Source: a virus. From it: 42,799 nt of DNA. The translations under genes and the position numbers were made by a program. How positions within the stretch are numbered: position 1 is the first letter of the stretch; each line of letters starts with the position of its first letter. Shown here piece by piece: positions 6,316 to 42,799 of this stretch. The notes under the pieces are model-generated. The model saw only the letters and a program-made list of their open reading frames with translations, was not told the origin of the DNA and made no database searches. The stretch covers positions 1 to 42,799 of IMG/VR virus record IMGVR_UViG_3300030202_001972. One strand, written 5' to 3'.

Positions 6316-7557
6316 ATGTCGCAGTTCCCTTTCACTTCTGGGCATGATGATATTTATGATGATGCAGTTTCTTTACTTGAAGATTCTCCAAATTATTCTG
6401 CCATTGTTAGACACTATGAGCATACAGGAGAAGTACCTGACGATGAAAACATTGAAAGGTTACGAGCATTACCAAACGATTATGATCCTGCAAACGGTGT
6501 TTTCGGTAATCAGTTCGGGAAACAAATGTCAGTTGATTCAAGAAACGTTTCTTTGCCCACAGCAGACGGATTCTTTAATTATGATACAGGGCAAGGCATA
6601 ACACAAATGGCAACAGATTCACAAACGATATACCAAAGAGAAGCCCCAGAGATAGAGGCTTTAAAAATTGGCTTGATGCAACAAGCCAGAGGTCTTACAG
6701 GAGCTCCTCCAACAGGGGGTTTGCCTAGTTTACAGGTTTCTCCTTTAAGTTCTTTAGAACAACAAGCAGCTAGTCTTGCAGAGTCTGGTATAGGTGGTTA
6801 TCAACCTTATTTACAAACAGGAGCAGATACTCTTGCAGGTGGTGCAACAGCAACCGATCTTCGAGGAGCTTTTGGAGCAAACATGGCAGCGGGAGCTACT
6901 CAGGGGTTTGATCCTTCTACAGGGATTGCTGCTTATATGAATCCTTATCAATCAGCTATTACTGATGAAATAAATAGAGCTTACGATATACAAAGATCAC
7001 AACTAGGACAACAACAAGCACAGGCAGGGGTGCTCGGTGGTAGTAGAGCAGCATTAATGCAATCAGAATTAGATAGAAATCGTTTAGACGCTCTGGCAAA
7101 AGCCCAAGCACAAGGGTTCTTTGAAGCTCAAAAAGCAGCATTAACAGGACAAGAAGCTCAACAAAAAAGACAACTGCAAGCAGGATTAGGTATAGGTCAG
7201 TTAGGTGCATTACAAGGTAAAACATTAGGAGATTTAGGCGTAAGACAAGCCGCTCTTGGAGAATTAGATACTAAACTAGGAATGCAAGATGTTTCTATGT
7301 TACAGGGTATCGGTGGGCTACAACGTGATGTTGCACAAAAACAATTAGAAGCTGATCGTCAAACACAGCTACAAAACATTTATGAACCTTACCAAAGATT
7401 ATCTTTCTATAGTGATATATTAAGAGGAGCTCCTTCTACCCAACAAACGTTGAGTCTAACCTCTGCTCCACAACCCTCGTTACTTAACCAACTCGTAGGA
7501 GGAGCAGCAACGGGACTTGGCTTATATGGAGCAGCAAATAAAACAGGAATAATATAA
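6316..7557 (+). CDS. Virion internal protein, Gln/Ala-rich
   Basis: A 413-residue protein starting directly after the previous TAG. The central part (about 190-330) is dominated by Gln, Ala, Leu and Gly in helical heptad-like patterns (QSELDRNRLDALAKAQAQGF), ending in a hydrophobic Gly/Ala tail (LVGGAATGLGLYGAANK) that could contact a membrane. It fits the pattern of proteins stored inside the capsid and ejected with DNA, as for the neighbouring large genes, but no enzymatic motif is visible. The stop overlaps the next ATG (TAATGA). Confidence 0.6.
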   Translation: MSQFPFTSGHDDIYDDAVSLLEDSPNYSAIVRHYEHTGEVPDDENIERLRALPNDYDPANGVFGNQFGKQMSVDSRNVSLPTADGFFNYDTGQGITQMATDSQTIYQREAPEIEALKIGLMQQARGLTGAPPTGGLPSLQVSPLSSLEQQAASLAESGIGGYQPYLQTGADTLAGGATATDLRGAFGANMAAGATQGFDPSTGIAAYMNPYQSAITDEINRAYDIQRSQLGQQQAQAGVLGGSRAALMQSELDRNRLDALAKAQAQGFFEAQKAALTGQEAQQKRQLQAGLGIGQLGALQGKTLGDLGVRQAALGELDTKLGMQDVSMLQGIGGLQRDVAQKQLEADRQTQLQNIYEPYQRLSFYSDILRGAPSTQQTLSLTSAPQPSLLNQLVGGAATGLGLYGAANKTGII

Positions 7558-10079
7558 TGAACGAAGTAATGAATCGTCCTATGTTCGGAGGAAATATGCA
7601 AGATTCCTCAGTAGGCGTAGGCATCACTTCAGGACTTGCTACGCCAGAACAACAAATGGATGAACAGGTTTTTGCTGAAACAGCAAACGGCATGCAAAAC
7701 ATGTTGTCTGATATAGATGGTGCCGAAAGTACTGAAGGAATAATAAATGCTATGCGAGGCAACCAAGCTCCCCTAGAGCAACGTTACCAAGAATTAGCTA
7801 GCTATGTAGGTGAAGCAGACGCAGGTAAAACACCAGAAACGGTACTAACTCTCATACAACCTACTTTTACCATGATGGAATTATCAAAACAATCAGCTCC
7901 CGCAGGTGGGATTGCTGATGCTATGCCTATGTCAGGGGGTGACACTTCTCCTGGAAATATAGACATGGCCTCGGGCGTTCGCTCTCCAGGAATGGACGAG
8001 GCCGTAATGAGAATGACACAAGGAGAACAACCTGTATTTAGACAAGCAGGTAGTCCCGCAACTGGAGAAAATTTTGGTTTTGGCTCAACAACTTATGGAC
8101 AAATATTCCCTAATATTGGAGTATATGCTCCTGATTACCAAACAATAGACAGAGCAGCTATACAACAAGATGCTAACGAGCTTTTAAAAACAATGAACCC
8201 TTATTTTACAGGCATAGAACAAAGGATTGGGAACATAACACCAGAAAAAAGATTAGCTACTTTTCAGTCTTATTTACCAGAAAGGAAAACAACACAGGAC
8301 TTATTAACAGAATATGAAACTTTGTTAGGCACAGATGATAAAACATCTAATCAAGCTCAAGCTTATTTAGCATTGGCTAAAGCAGGACAAAGTATAGCAG
8401 GGTCTGATAAAGGATTACTTGGTGCGGTTATAGACGCAGGTGGAGAAGCTGTTCCTGCATTATCTAAACTAGCCAGTGAACAAACAGCTAGAGACAGAAC
8501 ACTCAAATTAGCAGCACTACAAGAATCTAAAAATATAGATAAAAGTATTACTGATATAGCAGGTAAAGTTGCTTTGTCAGCTATATCAGACAGAAACGAT
8601 TTACAAACAACATTAGATAAAACTAAAGTCGATGTTGTAAAAGATTTTGTAGGCAAAGGCATTGACCTACAAGAAGGAGACCTCAAAGTAGTAAACGACA
8701 AAATTACACAAGAATTCAACATAGCAAACAAATATGCTTTAACTCCTTCACAAACATTTTTTGACCCAGAGACTAAAGACATTGTAGAAGCTAGGATGTC
8801 TGCTGAAGGATATACTTACATAGACAAAAATAATAACGTAGCTCCTCTGCCAAGCAATTACATAAAATATAAAAAAGGGTTGTTTAAAGACTTAGGTATT
8901 TCTGCTGAAGATTTAAAACTTGTAAGAGAAAATCTATTAATACCATACTCTACAACAGTAACAGACGGTGAAGGCACAAAAATGACTTTAGAAGAACTGT
9001 TGAAAAAACAAAACCCTAATGTTGAATTAAATGTTACGGGTTGGCATCAAGTTCCAGGATTTAGAAAAGGAGGAAGTACTTTCATGTCATTGAGCGGAAG
9101 TGAAAAAGATTTAGTTGAAGCTCCTCCAGGATATCAAACAGGAAAACTAACAGACATAATTGCCACAGAAGTTGATGGCGACGGTAATGTTAGAGTGTTG
9201 AACAAAATGAATGGTAGGGAAATTGTTGTAGCAGCAAGAGATGAAAAGGGACAAATACAAAGATTTGGAGAACCATTAGACGTTATTTATAACGACATAC
9301 CACAATATGAAGATGTAATAGAAAACGGACAACCAACAGGAAGAAAACGATTAATTCAAGGTAATCCGCTTGTACAATCAAGACCAAACGATGAAATCGG
9401 TTTATTTAAAACATTACCTATTAAAGAACAAAATAAAGCAAAAGTTGACCTTAAAGACATACACACAACAATTGATTTCTTAAATCAAATGGAAGAATAT
9501 TTATCAGACGGTCTTGGTCCTAAGTCTTGGTTTAAAGGATTTTCAAACTCTGTAATTGCACCTTTCGCAGGATCAGGAGACAGTGGTGCTAGGTTTGAGC
9601 GAACAGAAAGATCAAAATTCTTCCTCGAAAAATTTACTAAACATCTGCAAAAAACAGAAGCTTTATCTGAAAGATACGGAATAGCAGAACAAAAATTAAT
9701 TGCTGAAAAACTTGCAGAACCTGCTTTAACTTTCTTTAGAGATCCTGATTTAGCACTTGTAAAAATGGTTGAGTATAGAAGACAACTTGTAAACACAAAA
9801 AATAAACTACAAGCACAAATAAACAATGATCCAAACTACGCTTACCAAGACATAGTCCCTACAGGATATGAAACAGACCCACTATTGTTTGAAAAACCAG
9901 GACACTATGATGCTTTTCTAATTGGTATAAGAACTCTTCAAGAAAAATATCACGATCAACCAGACATATTAAATGAAAAACTACAACAACTCCACATAAA
10001 AATCGGACCAAATGGTGCAAAAGAACTTAAAGTTAATCCAGGAGTATATAACGCGGGAGCTTTAAACTTCGGAAAATAA
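7557..10079 (+). CDS. Large internal virion protein sharing a module with the gene at 41023
   Basis: An 840-residue protein, mostly helical and charged, without signal peptide or clear enzyme motif. The first 180 residues are Met/Gly/Pro-rich; the middle contains coiled-coil-like stretches. At about residues 692-716 is HLQKTEALSERYGIAEQKLI, which closely matches the 166-residue protein beside the portal (gene at 41023). The C-terminus (LFEKPGHYDAFL to YNAGALNFGK) is compact. Size and position between two other large structural proteins indicate an internal or ejection protein. Start is ATG at 7557 in TAATGA. Confidence 0.6.
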   Translation: MNEVMNRPMFGGNMQDSSVGVGITSGLATPEQQMDEQVFAETANGMQNMLSDIDGAESTEGIINAMRGNQAPLEQRYQELASYVGEADAGKTPETVLTLIQPTFTMMELSKQSAPAGGIADAMPMSGGDTSPGNIDMASGVRSPGMDEAVMRMTQGEQPVFRQAGSPATGENFGFGSTTYGQIFPNIGVYAPDYQTIDRAAIQQDANELLKTMNPYFTGIEQRIGNITPEKRLATFQSYLPERKTTQDLLTEYETLLGTDDKTSNQAQAYLALAKAGQSIAGSDKGLLGAVIDAGGEAVPALSKLASEQTARDRTLKLAALQESKNIDKSITDIAGKVALSAISDRNDLQTTLDKTKVDVVKDFVGKGIDLQEGDLKVVNDKITQEFNIANKYALTPSQTFFDPETKDIVEARMSAEGYTYIDKNNNVAPLPSNYIKYKKGLFKDLGISAEDLKLVRENLLIPYSTTVTDGEGTKMTLEELLKKQNPNVELNVTGWHQVPGFRKGGSTFMSLSGSEKDLVEAPPGYQTGKLTDIIATEVDGDGNVRVLNKMNGREIVVAARDEKGQIQRFGEPLDVIYNDIPQYEDVIENGQPTGRKRLIQGNPLVQSRPNDEIGLFKTLPIKEQNKAKVDLKDIHTTIDFLNQMEEYLSDGLGPKSWFKGFSNSVIAPFAGSGDSGARFERTERSKFFLEKFTKHLQKTEALSERYGIAEQKLIAEKLAEPALTFFRDPDLALVKMVEYRRQLVNTKNKLQAQINNDPNYAYQDIVPTGYETDPLLFEKPGHYDAFLIGIRTLQEKYHDQPDILNEKLQQLHIKIGPNGAKELKVNPGVYNAGALNFGK

Positions 10080-35547: not shown

Positions 35548-35970
35548 ATGATAAACGTAAAAACAAAGACTAAAGCTGACAAGCCTAAAGTCGCTATTAA
35601 AAAAGCTGAGTTAATTGTCACTGACAAAGAAATTAGCTTTGAAGAAATCTGGCAGTTTGTCCAGGAAAAAGCAGGAGGCAACGAGGCGAATGTCCATATC
35701 GTGCCACTATCCAACGTAGACTTAAAGGCGGAGAAACCTGTCCCGTTTGGATACGGAGGCAAAGTGGGAGGCACACGCATCATCATACAAGATGGGATGC
35801 TAAAAGGGATTGACGGTGATACGTCACTAAAAACAATCCTTAATACATTCGCGAAAAAGGGACACAGTCGTAAAAAACCTGTCTGTCTACATGCGTTGAT
35901 GCACGGAGGATACAGTTCGTCTAGCAAATACTGGATGACACCATACATCAAGCTAGTTGTCCAAGGATAA
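35548..35970 (+). CDS. Unknown protein, first of two paralogs between the terminase genes
   Basis: A 140-residue protein: a Lys-rich N-terminus (28 residues not found in the paralog), then EISFEEIWQFVQEKAGG, VPFGYGGKVGGTRIIIQDG, SLKTILN, KKGHSRKKPVCLHALM, HGGYSSSS and PYIKLVVQG. About 55% of the last 110 residues are identical to the protein at 36567 by hand count. It has its own promoter (35461) and terminator (35983), so it is a stand-alone unit inserted between the terminase genes. The DNA is visibly richer in G and C than the paralog and flanks. The family is unknown to me; moron-like benefit to phage or host is possible. Confidence 0.7.
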   Translation: MINVKTKTKADKPKVAIKKAELIVTDKEISFEEIWQFVQEKAGGNEANVHIVPLSNVDLKAEKPVPFGYGGKVGGTRIIIQDGMLKGIDGDTSLKTILNTFAKKGHSRKKPVCLHALMHGGYSSSSKYWMTPYIKLVVQG

Positions 35971-36566: not shown

Positions 36567-36935
36567 ATGGTAAAAATACTTAAAAAAGGTAAAGAGGAAA
36601 TCTCATATAAACAAATATGGGATTTTGTAAACAATGAGGCTAAGGGTGATCTTAGCAAGGTTACAGTTCAACCTCTCGCTAATGTAAACCTAAAGGAAAC
36701 TAAAAAAGTTCCTTTTGGTTATAATGGTAAAGCGGACGGTACTCGTATTAAAATACAAAATTGGATCTTAACTGGTGTCGATGGTAGTATGTCTCTTAAG
36801 GCAATACTCAACCAAAGTGCAAAATTAGGTCACAGTAAAAAACGTCCTATTTGTATACAGGCAATGCTCAATGGTGGCTATAGCTCAAGCTCTAGTACAT
36901 GGGGTACTGGCTACATACAGCTCGTAGTTAAGTAA
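36567..36935 (+). CDS. Unknown protein, second paralog
   Basis: A 122-residue AT-rich gene product aligning end to end with residues 28-140 of the protein at 35548: EISYKQIWDFVNNEAKG, VPFGYNGKADGTRIKIQ, SLKAILN, LGHSKKRPICIQAM, NGGYSSSSSTW and YIQLVVK. The shared VPFGY, GTRI, GHS, GGYSSSS and LVV residues are probably structural or ligand-binding. Base composition matches the phage, in contrast with the other copy. It has its own promoter and a downstream hairpin. Not recognised as a known family. Confidence 0.7.
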   Translation: MVKILKKGKEEISYKQIWDFVNNEAKGDLSKVTVQPLANVNLKETKKVPFGYNGKADGTRIKIQNWILTGVDGSMSLKAILNQSAKLGHSKKRPICIQAMLNGGYSSSSSTWGTGYIQLVVK

Positions 36936-37200: not shown

Positions 37201-38664
37201 ATGACTGATGTTTCGTTAGTCCCAGAAGACAGTTTAAAGAAATACGCAACCCTGCTCGACAGAGCGAAAGAGCTAGAAATATCACAAAAGTCTCAAGAAG
37301 ACTTTATGTCCTTTGTAAAAGCAGCATGGCCAGAGTTCATAAATGGACGACACCACAAAATCATGGCCGAGAAATTTAACCAAATAGCCAGTGGCAAACT
37401 CAAACGCTTAATTGTAAACATGCCACCAAGACACACCAAAAGTGAATTTGGTAGTTATCTATTACCTGCTTGGCTAATGGGCAAAAATCCAAAGCTCAAG
37501 ATAATGCAAACCACTCACACAGCAGAATTGGCATTTAGGTTTGGTCGTAAAGTGCGTAACCTTATGAACAGTAAAGAATACGAAAAGATTTTTAAAGGCG
37601 TAGAACTAAGAGCCGACTCGCAAGCAGCAGGGCGATGGGAAACCAGTAAAGGTGGAGAGTACTTCGCGGCAGGAGTTGGTGGTGCGGTAACAGGGCGTGG
37701 TGCTGATTTATTAATTATTGATGACCCACATTCCGAGCAAGACGCACTAAGTCCAACCGCTATGGAAAACGCTTACGAATGGTACACCAGTGGACCTCGT
37801 CAAAGGTTACAACCTGGAGGAGCCATAGTCATTATTATGACTCGTTGGGCAGAAAACGATTTAACAGGAAAATTAGTTAAACAACAAGGCAGAGATATAC
37901 TTGCAGACAAATGGGAAATAGTAGAGTTTCCTGCTCTTATGCCCGAGAGCGACAAACCCTTGTGGCCAGAATTTTGGAACAAGAAAGATTTGTTAAGTGT
38001 CAAAGGTTCACTTAGCGTTAACAAATGGGAAGCCCAATGGCAACAAAACCCGACCAGTGAATTAAGTGCGATTCTCAAAAGAGACTGGTGGCGTATTTGG
38101 AAAAAGGAAATACCACCCATGCAGTATGTAATGCAGAGTTACGATACCGCGTACAGTAAAAACACAAACGCTGACTTTAGTGCTATAACTACTTGGGGTA
38201 TCTTTTTTCCCGAGGAAGGAGCTCCACCAAACATTATTCTTTGTGACGCCAAACGTGGACGATGGGACTTTCCCGAACTTAGGCGTATAGCTTTAGAAGA
38301 ATACAAGTACTGGGACCCCGAATGTGTACTCATAGAAGCAAAAGCCAGTGGCATGCCGCTTACTCAAGAACTAAGGAATATAGGGATTCCCGTAACAAAT
38401 TACAGTCCAAGCCGAGGCAACGATAAATTTACTCGTGTCAACGCTATTGCTCCCATGCTCGAAAGTGGGTTAGTATGGTCACCAGATACTCGTTGGTCTG
38501 AAGAAGTGATTGAAGAGTGTGCTGCGTTTCCCGCAGGGGAACACGACGACTACGTTGATACAGTCACACAGGCATTGAGAAGATTTAGAGAGGGTGGGTT
38601 TATTCAACATCCAGAAGACTGGCAAGATGAACCAACCGCTCCAGTACAGAGGATATATTACTAA
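37201..38664 (+). CDS. terL: Terminase large subunit
   Basis: A 487-residue packaging ATPase/nuclease. Walker A is PPRHTKSE (75-82), Walker B LLIIDDP (170-176), followed by a motif III-like VIIMTRWAENDLTG. The C-terminal RNase H-like nuclease has MQSYDTAYSKN, VLIEAKASG and EHDDYVDTVTQALRR, with the Asp residues expected for metal binding. It drives DNA into the prohead and cuts concatemers. It overlaps the portal start by one base (TAATGG). ATG follows ATAGGAGAA. Confidence 0.95.
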   Translation: MTDVSLVPEDSLKKYATLLDRAKELEISQKSQEDFMSFVKAAWPEFINGRHHKIMAEKFNQIASGKLKRLIVNMPPRHTKSEFGSYLLPAWLMGKNPKLKIMQTTHTAELAFRFGRKVRNLMNSKEYEKIFKGVELRADSQAAGRWETSKGGEYFAAGVGGAVTGRGADLLIIDDPHSEQDALSPTAMENAYEWYTSGPRQRLQPGGAIVIIMTRWAENDLTGKLVKQQGRDILADKWEIVEFPALMPESDKPLWPEFWNKKDLLSVKGSLSVNKWEAQWQQNPTSELSAILKRDWWRIWKKEIPPMQYVMQSYDTAYSKNTNADFSAITTWGIFFPEEGAPPNIILCDAKRGRWDFPELRRIALEEYKYWDPECVLIEAKASGMPLTQELRNIGIPVTNYSPSRGNDKFTRVNAIAPMLESGLVWSPDTRWSEEVIEECAAFPAGEHDDYVDTVTQALRRFREGGFIQHPEDWQDEPTAPVQRIYY

Positions 38665-41022: not shown

Positions 41023-41523
41023 ATGGCAGATAAAAAAGACAAAATGATAAAATCGTTTAGACAATTTGTTCGTGATGAACAATCAAAAGCAGACGCAGAC
41101 AAAGGAAGAAAAATACTTAAAGACGTACAAGACAAACTTAAAGATAGAGTAAAAAAAGCAGACGGTGGCGAAGTAAGATCAAAAAAACTGTTAAAAGAGT
41201 TTACAGATCACTTGAATAAAACAGAGGCTTTAAACGAAAGATACGCAGTAGCAGAACAAAAACTTATAGAAAAGAAACTTAGAGAGAAACCACTTGATCC
41301 TCAAAAACTTCTTAAAGAAATTAAACCAACCTCTGGTACATACTCTGTTGCAGAACAAAAAATGATAGAAAAGAAACTTGATGAGCGAGGACGAGTAAAA
41401 AAAGCAGACGGTGGCATAGTTTTAAAACAAGCTACTGACGACAGAAACAGAACTCCTAACAAAGGTGTTTGTAGAGGAGGTGGTGCTGCTATAAAAGGAA
41501 TAAAATTTTCTGGTGTAAAATAA
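41023..41523 (+). CDS. Portal-proximal basic protein with internal repeats
   Basis: A 166-residue, very basic protein. VKKADGG occurs at about 43-49 and 125-131; VAEQKLIEKKL (76-86) recurs as VAEQKMIEKKL (109-119). Residues about 60-82 (FTDHLNKTEALNERYAVAEQ and KLI) match a stretch in the large internal virion protein at 7557, about 31 kb away. No known domain; a scaffold, adaptor or internal head protein is possible. The C-terminus KGVCRGGGAAIKGIKFSGVK is Gly/Lys-rich, like decoration or scaffold tails. Downstream, the next gene starts right after the TAA. Confidence 0.65.
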   Translation: MADKKDKMIKSFRQFVRDEQSKADADKGRKILKDVQDKLKDRVKKADGGEVRSKKLLKEFTDHLNKTEALNERYAVAEQKLIEKKLREKPLDPQKLLKEIKPTSGTYSVAEQKMIEKKLDERGRVKKADGGIVLKQATDDRNRTPNKGVCRGGGAAIKGIKFSGVK

Positions 41524-42210
41524 ATGATTTGGAAACAGATAAAAATGTCTGGGTGGCTCTTATTTATTTTAATATTAATTTATGGCTTTACTGATGCCCT
41601 TGCTGACGTCACAAGTTCAGGTGCAACAACCAACACTCAAACATCAACGAGTGGCAGTCAGACTGCGATAACTGGCGGATATAATTCTGATACAACAACA
41701 ACCTATCAATCAGGTAGTAGTTCAACAACTAACGCCACAACGAATAATTCAACCTCTAACGCAGCAAGTAGAACGCCTGTTAATATGGCTTCTGCTCCTG
41801 GAATGAGTGTATATGGGCAAGATAGCTGTGTTATACCGCTTGCAGCAGGAGTAACTGTTATAGGTTTTTCAGGTTCGTTTGGTAGTTATATGGTAGATAA
41901 AGAATGTGAAAGAAGAAAATCTACATCAGTCCTAGCTAAACTAGGCATGAAAGTAGCAGCAATATCTTTGATGTGTCAGGAAGAAAATGTATGGCAGTCA
42001 ATGTGGGACGCAGGAACACCTTGCCCGATTGATGGATTGATTGGGGAAAAAGCAAAAGCAAGATGGGAAGAACTTGGTGGCTATGAGCAAACCAAAAGAA
42101 CAAGCTATGTTAAAAAAAGCCCAAGCAAAGAAACTGATGAAAAAGTAGAACAATACAGAAAATACAAAGAGAGTATGAATGAAGACCATAGTAATCATAA
42201 TCATGACTAG
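41524..42210 (+). CDS. Exported protein with signal peptide and His-rich end
   Basis: A 228-residue protein. Residues 1-27 form a signal peptide (hydrophobic LLFILILIYGF, cleavage near DALA-D). The next 55 residues are Ser/Thr/Asn-rich and disordered; then SCVIPLAAGVTVIG, FGSYMVDKECERRK and AGTPCPIDG with Cys residues that could form disulfides. It ends HSNHNHD, a metal-binding-type tail. It is likely placed in the host envelope late in infection or in the virion; an entry- or lysis-related role is possible. Overlapped at its end by the lipoprotein gene at 42179. Confidence 0.6.
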   Translation: MIWKQIKMSGWLLFILILIYGFTDALADVTSSGATTNTQTSTSGSQTAITGGYNSDTTTTYQSGSSSTTNATTNNSTSNAASRTPVNMASAPGMSVYGQDSCVIPLAAGVTVIGFSGSFGSYMVDKECERRKSTSVLAKLGMKVAAISLMCQEENVWQSMWDAGTPCPIDGLIGEKAKARWEELGGYEQTKRTSYVKKSPSKETDEKVEQYRKYKESMNEDHSNHNHD

Positions 42211-42307
42211 CTTTATTGTTTCATGTGCAAGTAAAAGTATAGAGTTAAGACCTATACAGATATATGGCAGTAATGAGCAAAGCGTACCAACCCCAGTATA
42301 TGAATGA
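42179..42307 (+). CDS. Small lipoprotein (42 residues)
   Basis: ATG at 42179, in a different frame inside the last 32 bases of the previous gene, encodes MKTIVIIIMTSFIVSC followed by ASKSIELRPIQIYGS: a Lys start, hydrophobic core and lipobox I-V-S-C, which predicts lipid attachment after the signal. The mature part is about 27 residues with several Pro. It resembles small phage outer-membrane lipoproteins such as spanin partners in size only. AAGAGAG lies just upstream. Confidence 0.6.
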   Translation: MKTIVIIIMTSFIVSCASKSIELRPIQIYGSNEQSVPTPVYE

Positions 42308-42381
42308 TGGATTTAGATATACTTAACATATTTTTATTGTCGGCTTTGATATTACACACAGTCATGGAGTATGTATTATGA
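42304..42381 (+). CDS. 25-residue single-span membrane peptide
   Basis: ATG at 42304 overlaps the lipoprotein stop (ATGATGG); 25 codons MMDLDILNIFLLSALILHTV then MEYVL with one hydrophobic span. Its TGA overlaps the next ATG (ATGA at 42378). The chain of overlaps supports translation. Confidence 0.45.
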   Translation: MMDLDILNIFLLSALILHTVMEYVL

Positions 42382-42551
42382 ATAAAGAATTAGAAAAAGA
42401 CTTTATAGAAGTTGCTGAGTGTATAAGAAGTGGGCAGGTAGAACCTGAACAAATAGTACAATACATGAATGTTCAACCTGAGTTTGAGCAATGGTATAAA
42501 GATAGATATATTAGCAAACGCAAGACAACTGTTGGAGCATTGAAGTTATGA
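42378..42551 (+). CDS. 57-residue protein of unknown function
   Basis: ATG at 42378 (ATGA overlap) encodes 57 residues (MNKELEKDFIEVAECIRSGQ ... QVEPEQIVQYMNVQPEFEQW ...): helical, acidic N-terminus and basic end. No membrane span. Ends with ATGA at 42548 opening the next gene. Confidence 0.55.
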   Translation: MNKELEKDFIEVAECIRSGQVEPEQIVQYMNVQPEFEQWYKDRYISKRKTTVGALKL

Positions 42552-42799
42552 GATACATAATACCTTTGTTGTTCCCTATTACTTTGTTTGCAGAAACTAC
42601 AAATAATTTATTACCACAACAGTTTTTTAATAATAACTCTAACCACAATGAGTGGACATGTAATGATCCATCACATAATCATGGCAACAGTATTGTTGCA
42701 GCACATCATGGCGACAGCATTGAAAGAGATGTAAGCTTGTCTGAGTATTTAACTGAAGATCAAATTCAATATGGGTGGTCATCTACATTAGGTGCAGAT
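42548..42799 (+). CDS. Exported His/Asn-rich protein, partial
   Basis: ATG at 42548 (ATGA) opens a frame that runs to the end of the window (84 codons). MRYIIPLLFPITLFAETTNN is a short signal peptide with likely cleavage after FA. The visible mature part has several His (NHNEW, SHNHGNS, AAHHGD) and one Cys, reminiscent of the His-rich end of the protein at 41524. The rest is outside the window. Confidence 0.6.
   Translation, partial: MRYIIPLLFPITLFAETTNNLLPQQFFNNNSNHNEWTCNDPSHNHGNSIVAAHHGDSIERDVSLSEYLTEDQIQYGWSSTLGAD

Follow-up and report, generated by a model that had tools for sequence, protein, structure and literature searches.

What would a tailed phage do with a run of tightly overlapping genes whose products appear to be sent into the envelope of its host? 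The question is raised by the right-hand end of a virus record of 42,799 bases (IMGVR_UViG_3300030202_001972), which is linear according to its IMG/VR class and which is called here, at its full length, the window. Judging from its genes, the source is a marine tailed phage: a terminase large subunit gene (TerL) lies at 37201 (PHROG 38, E 4.8e-109) and a portal gene at 38664 (PHROG 1216, E 5.4e-52), and the top match of the TerL is pelagiphage HTVC027P, with HTVC023P ranking fourth. The portal gene is followed by a gene for a protein of 166 residues and then by the first gene of the overlapping set, named A to E below (Table 1). The first-pass annotation had seen here five ATG frames overlapping head to tail between 41524 and 42799 and had proposed an unusual cassette for the host envelope, lysis or exclusion. 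The frames and their overlaps are present as it described them (A/B, 32 bases; B/C, 4, within ATGATG; C/D and D/E, 4 each, within ATGA), and its interpretation is partly supported. The fifth frame was rightly called exported, but it is cut by the end of the record after 84 codons without a stop and is thus incomplete. The start of the window was considered as a source of the missing part and rejected, as it lacks the ...RIRGY end of the full-length E proteins of loci L003 and L007.

Table 1. Features of the overlapping gene set at the right-hand end of the window
Feature	Position	Strand	Basis
Gene A, exported protein, 228 aa	41524..42210	+	Only significant PHROG match 20531; 4 invariant Cys
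Gene B, 42-aa lipoprotein, lipobox I-V-S-C	42179..42307	+	Conserved in relatives; frame-specific purifying selection
Frame C, 25-aa hydrophobic peptide	42304..42381	+	Aligned DNA of L003, L009
Gene D, 57 aa, without signal peptide or transmembrane segment	42378..42551	+	9 loci, dN/dS
Gene E, 5' part, signal peptide and start of jelly-roll head	42548..42799	+	Full-length homologues, L007 model

Relatives were gathered with A as bait. A first scan gave 38 loci and a second the best 80 of at least 486 confirmed relatives of A, a number that marks the module as common; 14 of these 80 repeat first-scan contigs. Further A loci came from genome contigs (12) and from named phage records (11, of which 10 were examined at sequence level), including cultured phages of SAR11 and Roseobacter-type hosts. 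After removal of duplicates, there were 83 distinct loci (viral contigs and the window), 73 of them with at least 450 bases after A. In profile searches, E follows A in each of the 73 distinct loci from viral contigs that have room for it, and a further gene, F, which in the case of the window would lie beyond its edge, follows E in all 59 with room; these counts are to be read with the sampling in mind, since the loci were picked by likeness to A and the 19 E and six F sequences that built the profiles match by construction. B is present in 43 of the 73 loci and missing from 30. The genes between A and E are arranged as B-E (L014), B-D-E (L006, L112), B-C-D-E (window, L002, L007) or B followed by a fusion of C to E (L003, L004, L009). 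The core of the cassette is the pair of A and E, and B is an add-on. On these comparisons between loci, the cassette is a real and widespread block.

E is not the sole partner of A, because the E and F profiles match only six of the ten named phages (HTVC023P, Mosig, Baldr, HTVC033P, HTVC202P, and AP013540, with no match in HTVC115P, CRP-810, CRP-207, and MW202481) and only two of the 12 genome-contig loci with A. At several loci missed by the profiles, other exported-looking proteins follow A, and F-like proteins were recognised by eye slightly further on. The slot between A and F seems to take varied exported cargo: loci L134 and L136 carry several exported-looking proteins other than E between A and an F-like protein, some of them similar by eye to pilus subunits or chaperones; the four L134 proteins in this position have no Pfam family over cut-off. 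HTVC027P, the phage with the closest TerL, has no match to A, and no gene in its region can be placed as A, E or F.

The A protein is laid out as a signal peptide, a stretch rich in Thr, Asn, Ser and Gly, and a conserved part with four cysteines, C102, C128, C151 and C167, which are invariant across 25 sequences. The PHROG family that it matches is of unknown function (E 1.4e-10); no Pfam family over cut-off, no NCBIfam match and no sequence relative in the PDB was found, and a structure model was unusable (pLDDT 45.7). Its dN/dS is 0.11 (seven sequences; 16 of 21 pairs kept, since the pooled estimates for A, B and D exclude pairs whose synonymous differences exceed 0.7 per site). Export was judged for A and E by a crude signal-peptide rule, not by SignalP, with the genome-contig loci L132-L142 left out. 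By this rule, 85 of 87 distinct copies of A pass, both failures having an over-extended start. Among the 36 ATG frames of at least 100 residues on the + strand of the window, a comparison that does not include the 84-codon E, one passes, and this is A itself.

A had also been described as His-tailed. It does end in NEDHSNHNHD, but the tail is bound to the reading-frame overlap with B. Three His occur among the last 12 residues in the ten copies with a 32-base overlap and none in 30 grouped copies whose overlap is 8 bases or, in the L102 type, replaced by a gap; the mean is 0.09 in 32 copies without B. The tie is not strict, as the 41-base type (two copies) has three His, the 44-base type (six copies) averages 1.33, and the 26- and 29-base types (three and one copies) have none. 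The window's His codons arise where the Ile-rich signal codons of B are read in the frame of A; therefore, a metal-binding role is not needed to account for them. The Cys-rich part of A is also found near the C-terminus of Hyphomonadaceae proteins, behind Asn-rich or collagen-like repeats, once in a complete chromosome (L139) and also in contigs (L140, L142). A gene near the A-like part in L139 and L140 is presumably a crotonyl-CoA reductase. An unannotated frame for an 86-residue lipoprotein overlaps the start of A in phage CRP-810 (L047:6597-6857); its Cys pattern resembles by eye the conserved part of A, and it is possibly a lipid-anchored form of the same domain.

The small lipoprotein B is conserved in relatives with its lipobox kept, as the first-pass annotation would have it for a genuine frame. 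The lipobox was recognised in all 40 distinct B genes, in 39 by script and in L125 (SILLTSC), which falls just outside the script limit, by eye; 27 residues remain from the lipobox Cys onward. The mature part of window-type B has a dN/dS of 0.07 and no stop (eight distinct sequences, 25 codons), against 16 and 22 stops in the two remaining forward frames. A type with 40 residues gives 0.15 (11 sequences), with 24 stops in each other frame, and pooling of 27 genes gives 0.35, or 0.33 without the overlapping ends (267 of 351 pairs kept). Because its own frame is free of stops and under purifying selection, B is a real gene.

Frame C, by comparison, had been taken for a 25-residue membrane peptide, a reading that gives way to another. 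In L003 and L009, aligned DNA shows a C-like start that passes into mature E where signal cleavage is predicted, and the alignment gap removes D and the second signal peptide. Since these C-like starts run into mature E, C is probably an alternative signal peptide of E that was stranded in the lineage of the window. Among the loci inspected, a free-standing C occurs in the window, L002, L007 and L008. D was found at nine loci, directly upstream of E at all nine, and beside several different signal peptides and E heads; it has no transmembrane segment, and its dN/dS is 0.23 (five sequences; 10 of 10 pairs kept).

Full-length E proteins of relatives have 393-656 codons (approx. 390-660 residues) and consist of a jelly-roll head, a polyanionic linker (net charge -46 to -103 in six copies) and a helical C-terminus. 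By the crude rule, the N-terminus is signal-peptide-like in all 92 distinct sequences. A structure model of the L007 protein has a mean pLDDT of 54 overall; within it, residues 11-180 reach 63-96 per ten-residue block and form a beta sandwich, whereas residues 197-473 are of low confidence, with almost no predicted structure, and the C-terminus is helical. In structural comparison, the head scores highest against the glycan-binding domain of Fbs1, an F-box protein (Z 14.6, rmsd 3.1, 157 residues aligned, 11% identity), and the carbohydrate-binding modules CBM16 (Z 12.8) and CBM61 (Z 11.9) are matched as well. The modelled head thus has a jelly-roll fold of sugar-binding type, and such a fold alone is no proof of sugar binding. 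At the sequence level, the family PF02018 (CBM_4_9) scores 17.4 bits with L014 E and 16.8 with AP013540 E, under its curated cut-off of 25.9, and does not match L007 E. A comparison of E with PDB sequences gave one chance-level match (E 0.57), and profiles of the head found no homologue among the other frames of the sampled loci (E 1), a result that lends no support to a ligand common to E and the tail fibre of the phage itself.

The heads of E are exchanged between phages, as comparison of the sequences indicates. In a survey of 74 distinct full-length E proteins, giving 2701 pairs that are not independent of each other, 71 pairs combine C-termini at least 75% identical with heads of different type, and 65 combine heads at least 80% identical with C-termini below 55%. 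For example, L022 and L029 share 97% identity over the C-termini and 31% over the heads, and L112 keeps D and the signal peptide MKYIIPLLFP of the window, whereas its head differs. Head swapping is what would be expected of a domain that tracks variable glycans; swapping at domain borders is also common in phages whatever the function of the protein.

Taken together, the export signals of A and E and the conserved lipoprotein B make an envelope-directed cassette well supported, and in this respect the earlier reading was sound. Within this frame, the reading that we prefer, with a probability of roughly 0.4, is that of a lectin module that limits adsorption of virions to the dying cell and its debris. 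It is chosen because export, the sugar-binding-type fold and head swapping all point to a variable host glycan. The presence of tail-fibre, holin, TerL and portal genes in the vicinity is also counted in its favour. A-(B)-(C/D)-E-F would be a mobile cassette of overlapping genes, presumably coupled in translation, that sends a lectin-like E and its partner A into the host envelope. F would be a coiled-coil protein of the inner membrane and B, encoded at more than half of the loci, a very small lipoprotein of the outer membrane. The E head might bind a host-envelope glycan, for example LPS or a surface polysaccharide, with A and F holding or ordering E, and the occupied glycan, together with the long polyanionic linker, could then block adsorption of virions to the dying cell and to debris.

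A parallel can be drawn with Llp of phage T5, for in both cases the phage encodes envelope proteins with the potential to prevent adsorption to infected cells and debris. However, Llp is an early protein whose target is a protein receptor, whereas the candidate effector of the cassette is the lectin-like E (PMC9586334). Exclusion proteins described in that source are made early, which counts against masking by a protein made late. Where E would act after export is a related question. As CsgG, an outer-membrane exporter, was not found in any of the 20 records searched (the window and most relatives being fragments), E may be retained in the periplasm until the cell lyses. A more specific version, in which a lectin with a polyanionic brush is made late, stored in the periplasm and spread at lysis over the glycans of debris and of neighbouring cells, is unlikely in our view; late timing is not favoured by phage Mosig (Kyanoviridae), whose module sits among replication genes. 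If it were true, it would represent a new kind of release factor that keeps progeny virions off their own wreckage, with swappable heads that track host surface sugars and would help to account for the carbohydrate-binding and terminase genes in the hypervariable islands of marine phages.

The reading ranked second, doubtful in our judgement, is that of a lysis module, with F as an inner-membrane protein that is spanin-like or promotes release, B as the spanin subunit of the outer membrane, and A and E completing the rupture of the envelope by binding peptidoglycan or outer-membrane glycans. Its place rests on gene neighbourhood, weak matches of F, and the lengths of F and B, and the optional B counts against it. 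According to annotations and family matches, phages that are not related to each other often carry the module close to genes of lysis type or to terminase or tail-fibre genes. In Mosig, a holin of the GTA_holin_3TM family (PF11351, over cut-off) lies about 220 bases upstream of A. An M15 peptidase directly follows F in HTVC023P. In HTVC033P, a gene annotated as lysozyme but reading as an amidase precedes A by 0.9 kb, and a gene annotated as amidase lies 2.3 kb beyond E; in L033, a Phage_lysozyme match precedes A by 0.65 kb. In MW202481, A is followed by a gene annotated as tonB, to which the E profile gives no match, and an annotated lysozyme comes about 1 kb further on. The terminase large subunit is annotated 0.6 kb after E in AP013540, and the gene after F reads by eye as a terminase small subunit in L007, L009, L014, L016 and L128. 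No lysis gene is annotated in the stretches around A of Baldr, HTVC202P and HTVC115P.

F was compared with the inner-membrane subunit of a spanin pair. It is a coiled-coil protein with one transmembrane segment: in seven copies, the best 19-residue hydropathy window lies near the N-terminus and scores 1.45-2.37, above 1.6 in six of them, and the charges of these copies do not decide between topologies. Three of six F proteins match a PHROG 'Rz-like spanin' family weakly (E 1.4e-4, 0.04 and 0.064). B, for its part, matches two PHROG families of this name over the signal peptide only (E 0.021 and 0.25). It carries the lipoprotein signal with lipobox expected of an outer-membrane spanin, and B together with a 74-residue F would offer, by count, about 75 periplasmic residues, within the range of 62-300 given in PMC6139136. 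The likeness to two-component spanins (Rz/Rz1) extends to a small lipoprotein and a one-transmembrane coiled-coil protein on the same strand and, in several phages, to nearby lysis-type genes.

However, B and F are not adjacent, E standing between them, B has about 27 mature residues, and B is not obligatory (43 of 73 loci, as against 59 of 59 for F), so that the two do not always occur together, as spanin subunits do; a partner could be encoded elsewhere in the genome. Of 44 loci without B, 38 have no other lipoprotein frame nearby, many of their flanks being short. A further argument comes from L022, where an Rz/Rz1-like overlapping pair, recognised by eye (L022:3510-4335; no spanin family over cut-off in Pfam), already lies about 0.65 kb upstream of A, although as a lysis-type neighbour this pair also speaks for the lysis reading. 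The lipoprotein of the pair, which in L022 overlaps the Rz-like gene, recurs in L019, L020, L024 and L029, its start lying about 1 kb upstream of A. Among 20 scanned relatives, five have an M15_3 or Phage_lysozyme match, which in four cases is separated from A by some 22 kb or more; the other 15 showed neither family, and Amidase_2 was found in none of the 20, many of these records being fragments. The annotation had pointed out that no endolysin is seen in the window, which is borne out for M15_3, Amidase_2 and Phage_lysozyme; this is weak evidence because the record is a fragment. The holin family PF11351 was not found in the window. Moreover, spanins would need no swapped sugar-binding heads, and we know of no sugar-binding-type protein that is part of a spanin system.

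A common neighbour of the cassette also bears on the lysis reading. This gene, H, codes for a protein of 143 residues with a hydrophobic C-terminal part and a holin-like shape (e.g., L014:4326-4757; PHROG 38283, function unknown). Among the 83 distinct loci, it precedes A in 56 and comes after it in five, is absent from 15 that have room (the window is one in which it was not found despite room), and seven have no room for it. Homology of H to the Mosig holin is not supported, the profile alignment giving a probability of 8%, which weakens the case for a lysis module.

Another comparison for F is the releasin gp25 of phage Mu, a DUF2730 protein. F likewise has one transmembrane segment and lies near lysis and terminase genes (for Mu, see PMC9239132), and the gene at the F position in AP013540 is annotated as DUF2730. 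However, PF10805 is over cut-off in none of 20 records, AP013540 included, and the identification was rejected; three weak matches below cut-off lie in frames of 516-607 residues, and the F proteins of L007 and L009 have none. By eye, an Asn-Pro-Leu motif recurs near the C-terminus of the F proteins inspected. Two genes annotated as lysozyme, gp51 of CRP-810 (L047:8201-8623) and gp73 of CRP-207 (L050:3292-3873), read as F-type, having one transmembrane segment, a coil and an Asn-Pro-Leu end; the F profile does not match them, and gp51 has no lysozyme family match in Pfam.

That the infected cell carries A and E on its surface, where they would hold siblings together, appears rather improbable. 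Such 'sibling capture' has been proposed in print for the curli of pelagiphages (PMC7029224, PMC9599517), and the low-complexity stretch of A before its Cys-rich part, like the repeats in the Hyphomonadaceae proteins, would suit an adhesin. The cassette resembles the pelagiphage curli or type VIII secretion modules in that it encodes exported proteins, occurs in the same marine phage groups and moves between families. It differs in that neither CsgG nor, for A or E, any curli family match was found in the records searched, and its genes and neighbourhood are others; curli, to which the repeats of A might have pointed, was therefore rejected. The curli modules described in such phages are a different gene set (PMC9599517, PMC7029224, PMC9004378), and for a curli-bearing relative of Mosig, PMC9004378 reports no clumping.

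Quite improbable is the view that E is a virion receptor-binding protein in a host-recognition module. The structural matches of the jelly-roll head include domains of tail fibres and tailspikes, AP013540 and CRP-810 have annotated tail-fibre genes no more than about 3 kb ahead of A, and E is hypervariable (compare PMC3909814). Nonetheless, a virion protein would hardly have a signal-peptide-like N-terminus in every copy, a feature otherwise seen in the window, among its large + strand frames, in A alone. Furthermore, the whole signal peptide of E is exchanged at the predicted cleavage site, which is sensible only if the peptide is used. Finally, the prospect that these are chance or decayed frames is negligible: C has the look of a remnant, but the dN/dS values of A (0.11), B (0.07-0.35) and D (0.23), the recurrence of the module in many contigs and the presence of A in 11 named phage records stand against it, and conservation across loci already refutes it for A, B, D and E.

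The preferred reading, that of an exported lectin module, would also have consequences for published gene classes. Carbohydrate-binding proteins and terminases are among the commonest genes of metaviromic islands, and the former have been read as receptor-binding (PMC3909814). The E homologue of AP013540 shares this annotation, which suggests that the island proteins include homologues of E; it also sits beside a terminase gene. The signal peptide of E and its coupling to an exported A point, in contrast to the published reading, to a role in the envelope; should E be an exported lectin, genes of a class that the literature treats as receptor-binding would have to be reinterpreted. Physical linkage to E might also explain the terminase genes of these islands (PMC3909814). 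No description of the A-B-E-F cassette was found in the open-licence PMC literature, including those portions of PMC6139136, PMC10504331 and PMC6487183 that bear on such genes.

To our knowledge, there has been little work on the control of lysis or adsorption in phages of SAR11 and Roseobacter-type hosts, in which the cassette is found. Two observations on the remainder of the window may be added. The 166-residue gene just before A (41023-41523) has a patchwork look, with internal repeats of VAEQK-IEKKL-type and KKADGG motifs, and shares a block of 40 residues with an 840-residue protein encoded at 7557-10079. The adjacent small genes at 35548-35970 and 36567-36935 are clear paralogues.
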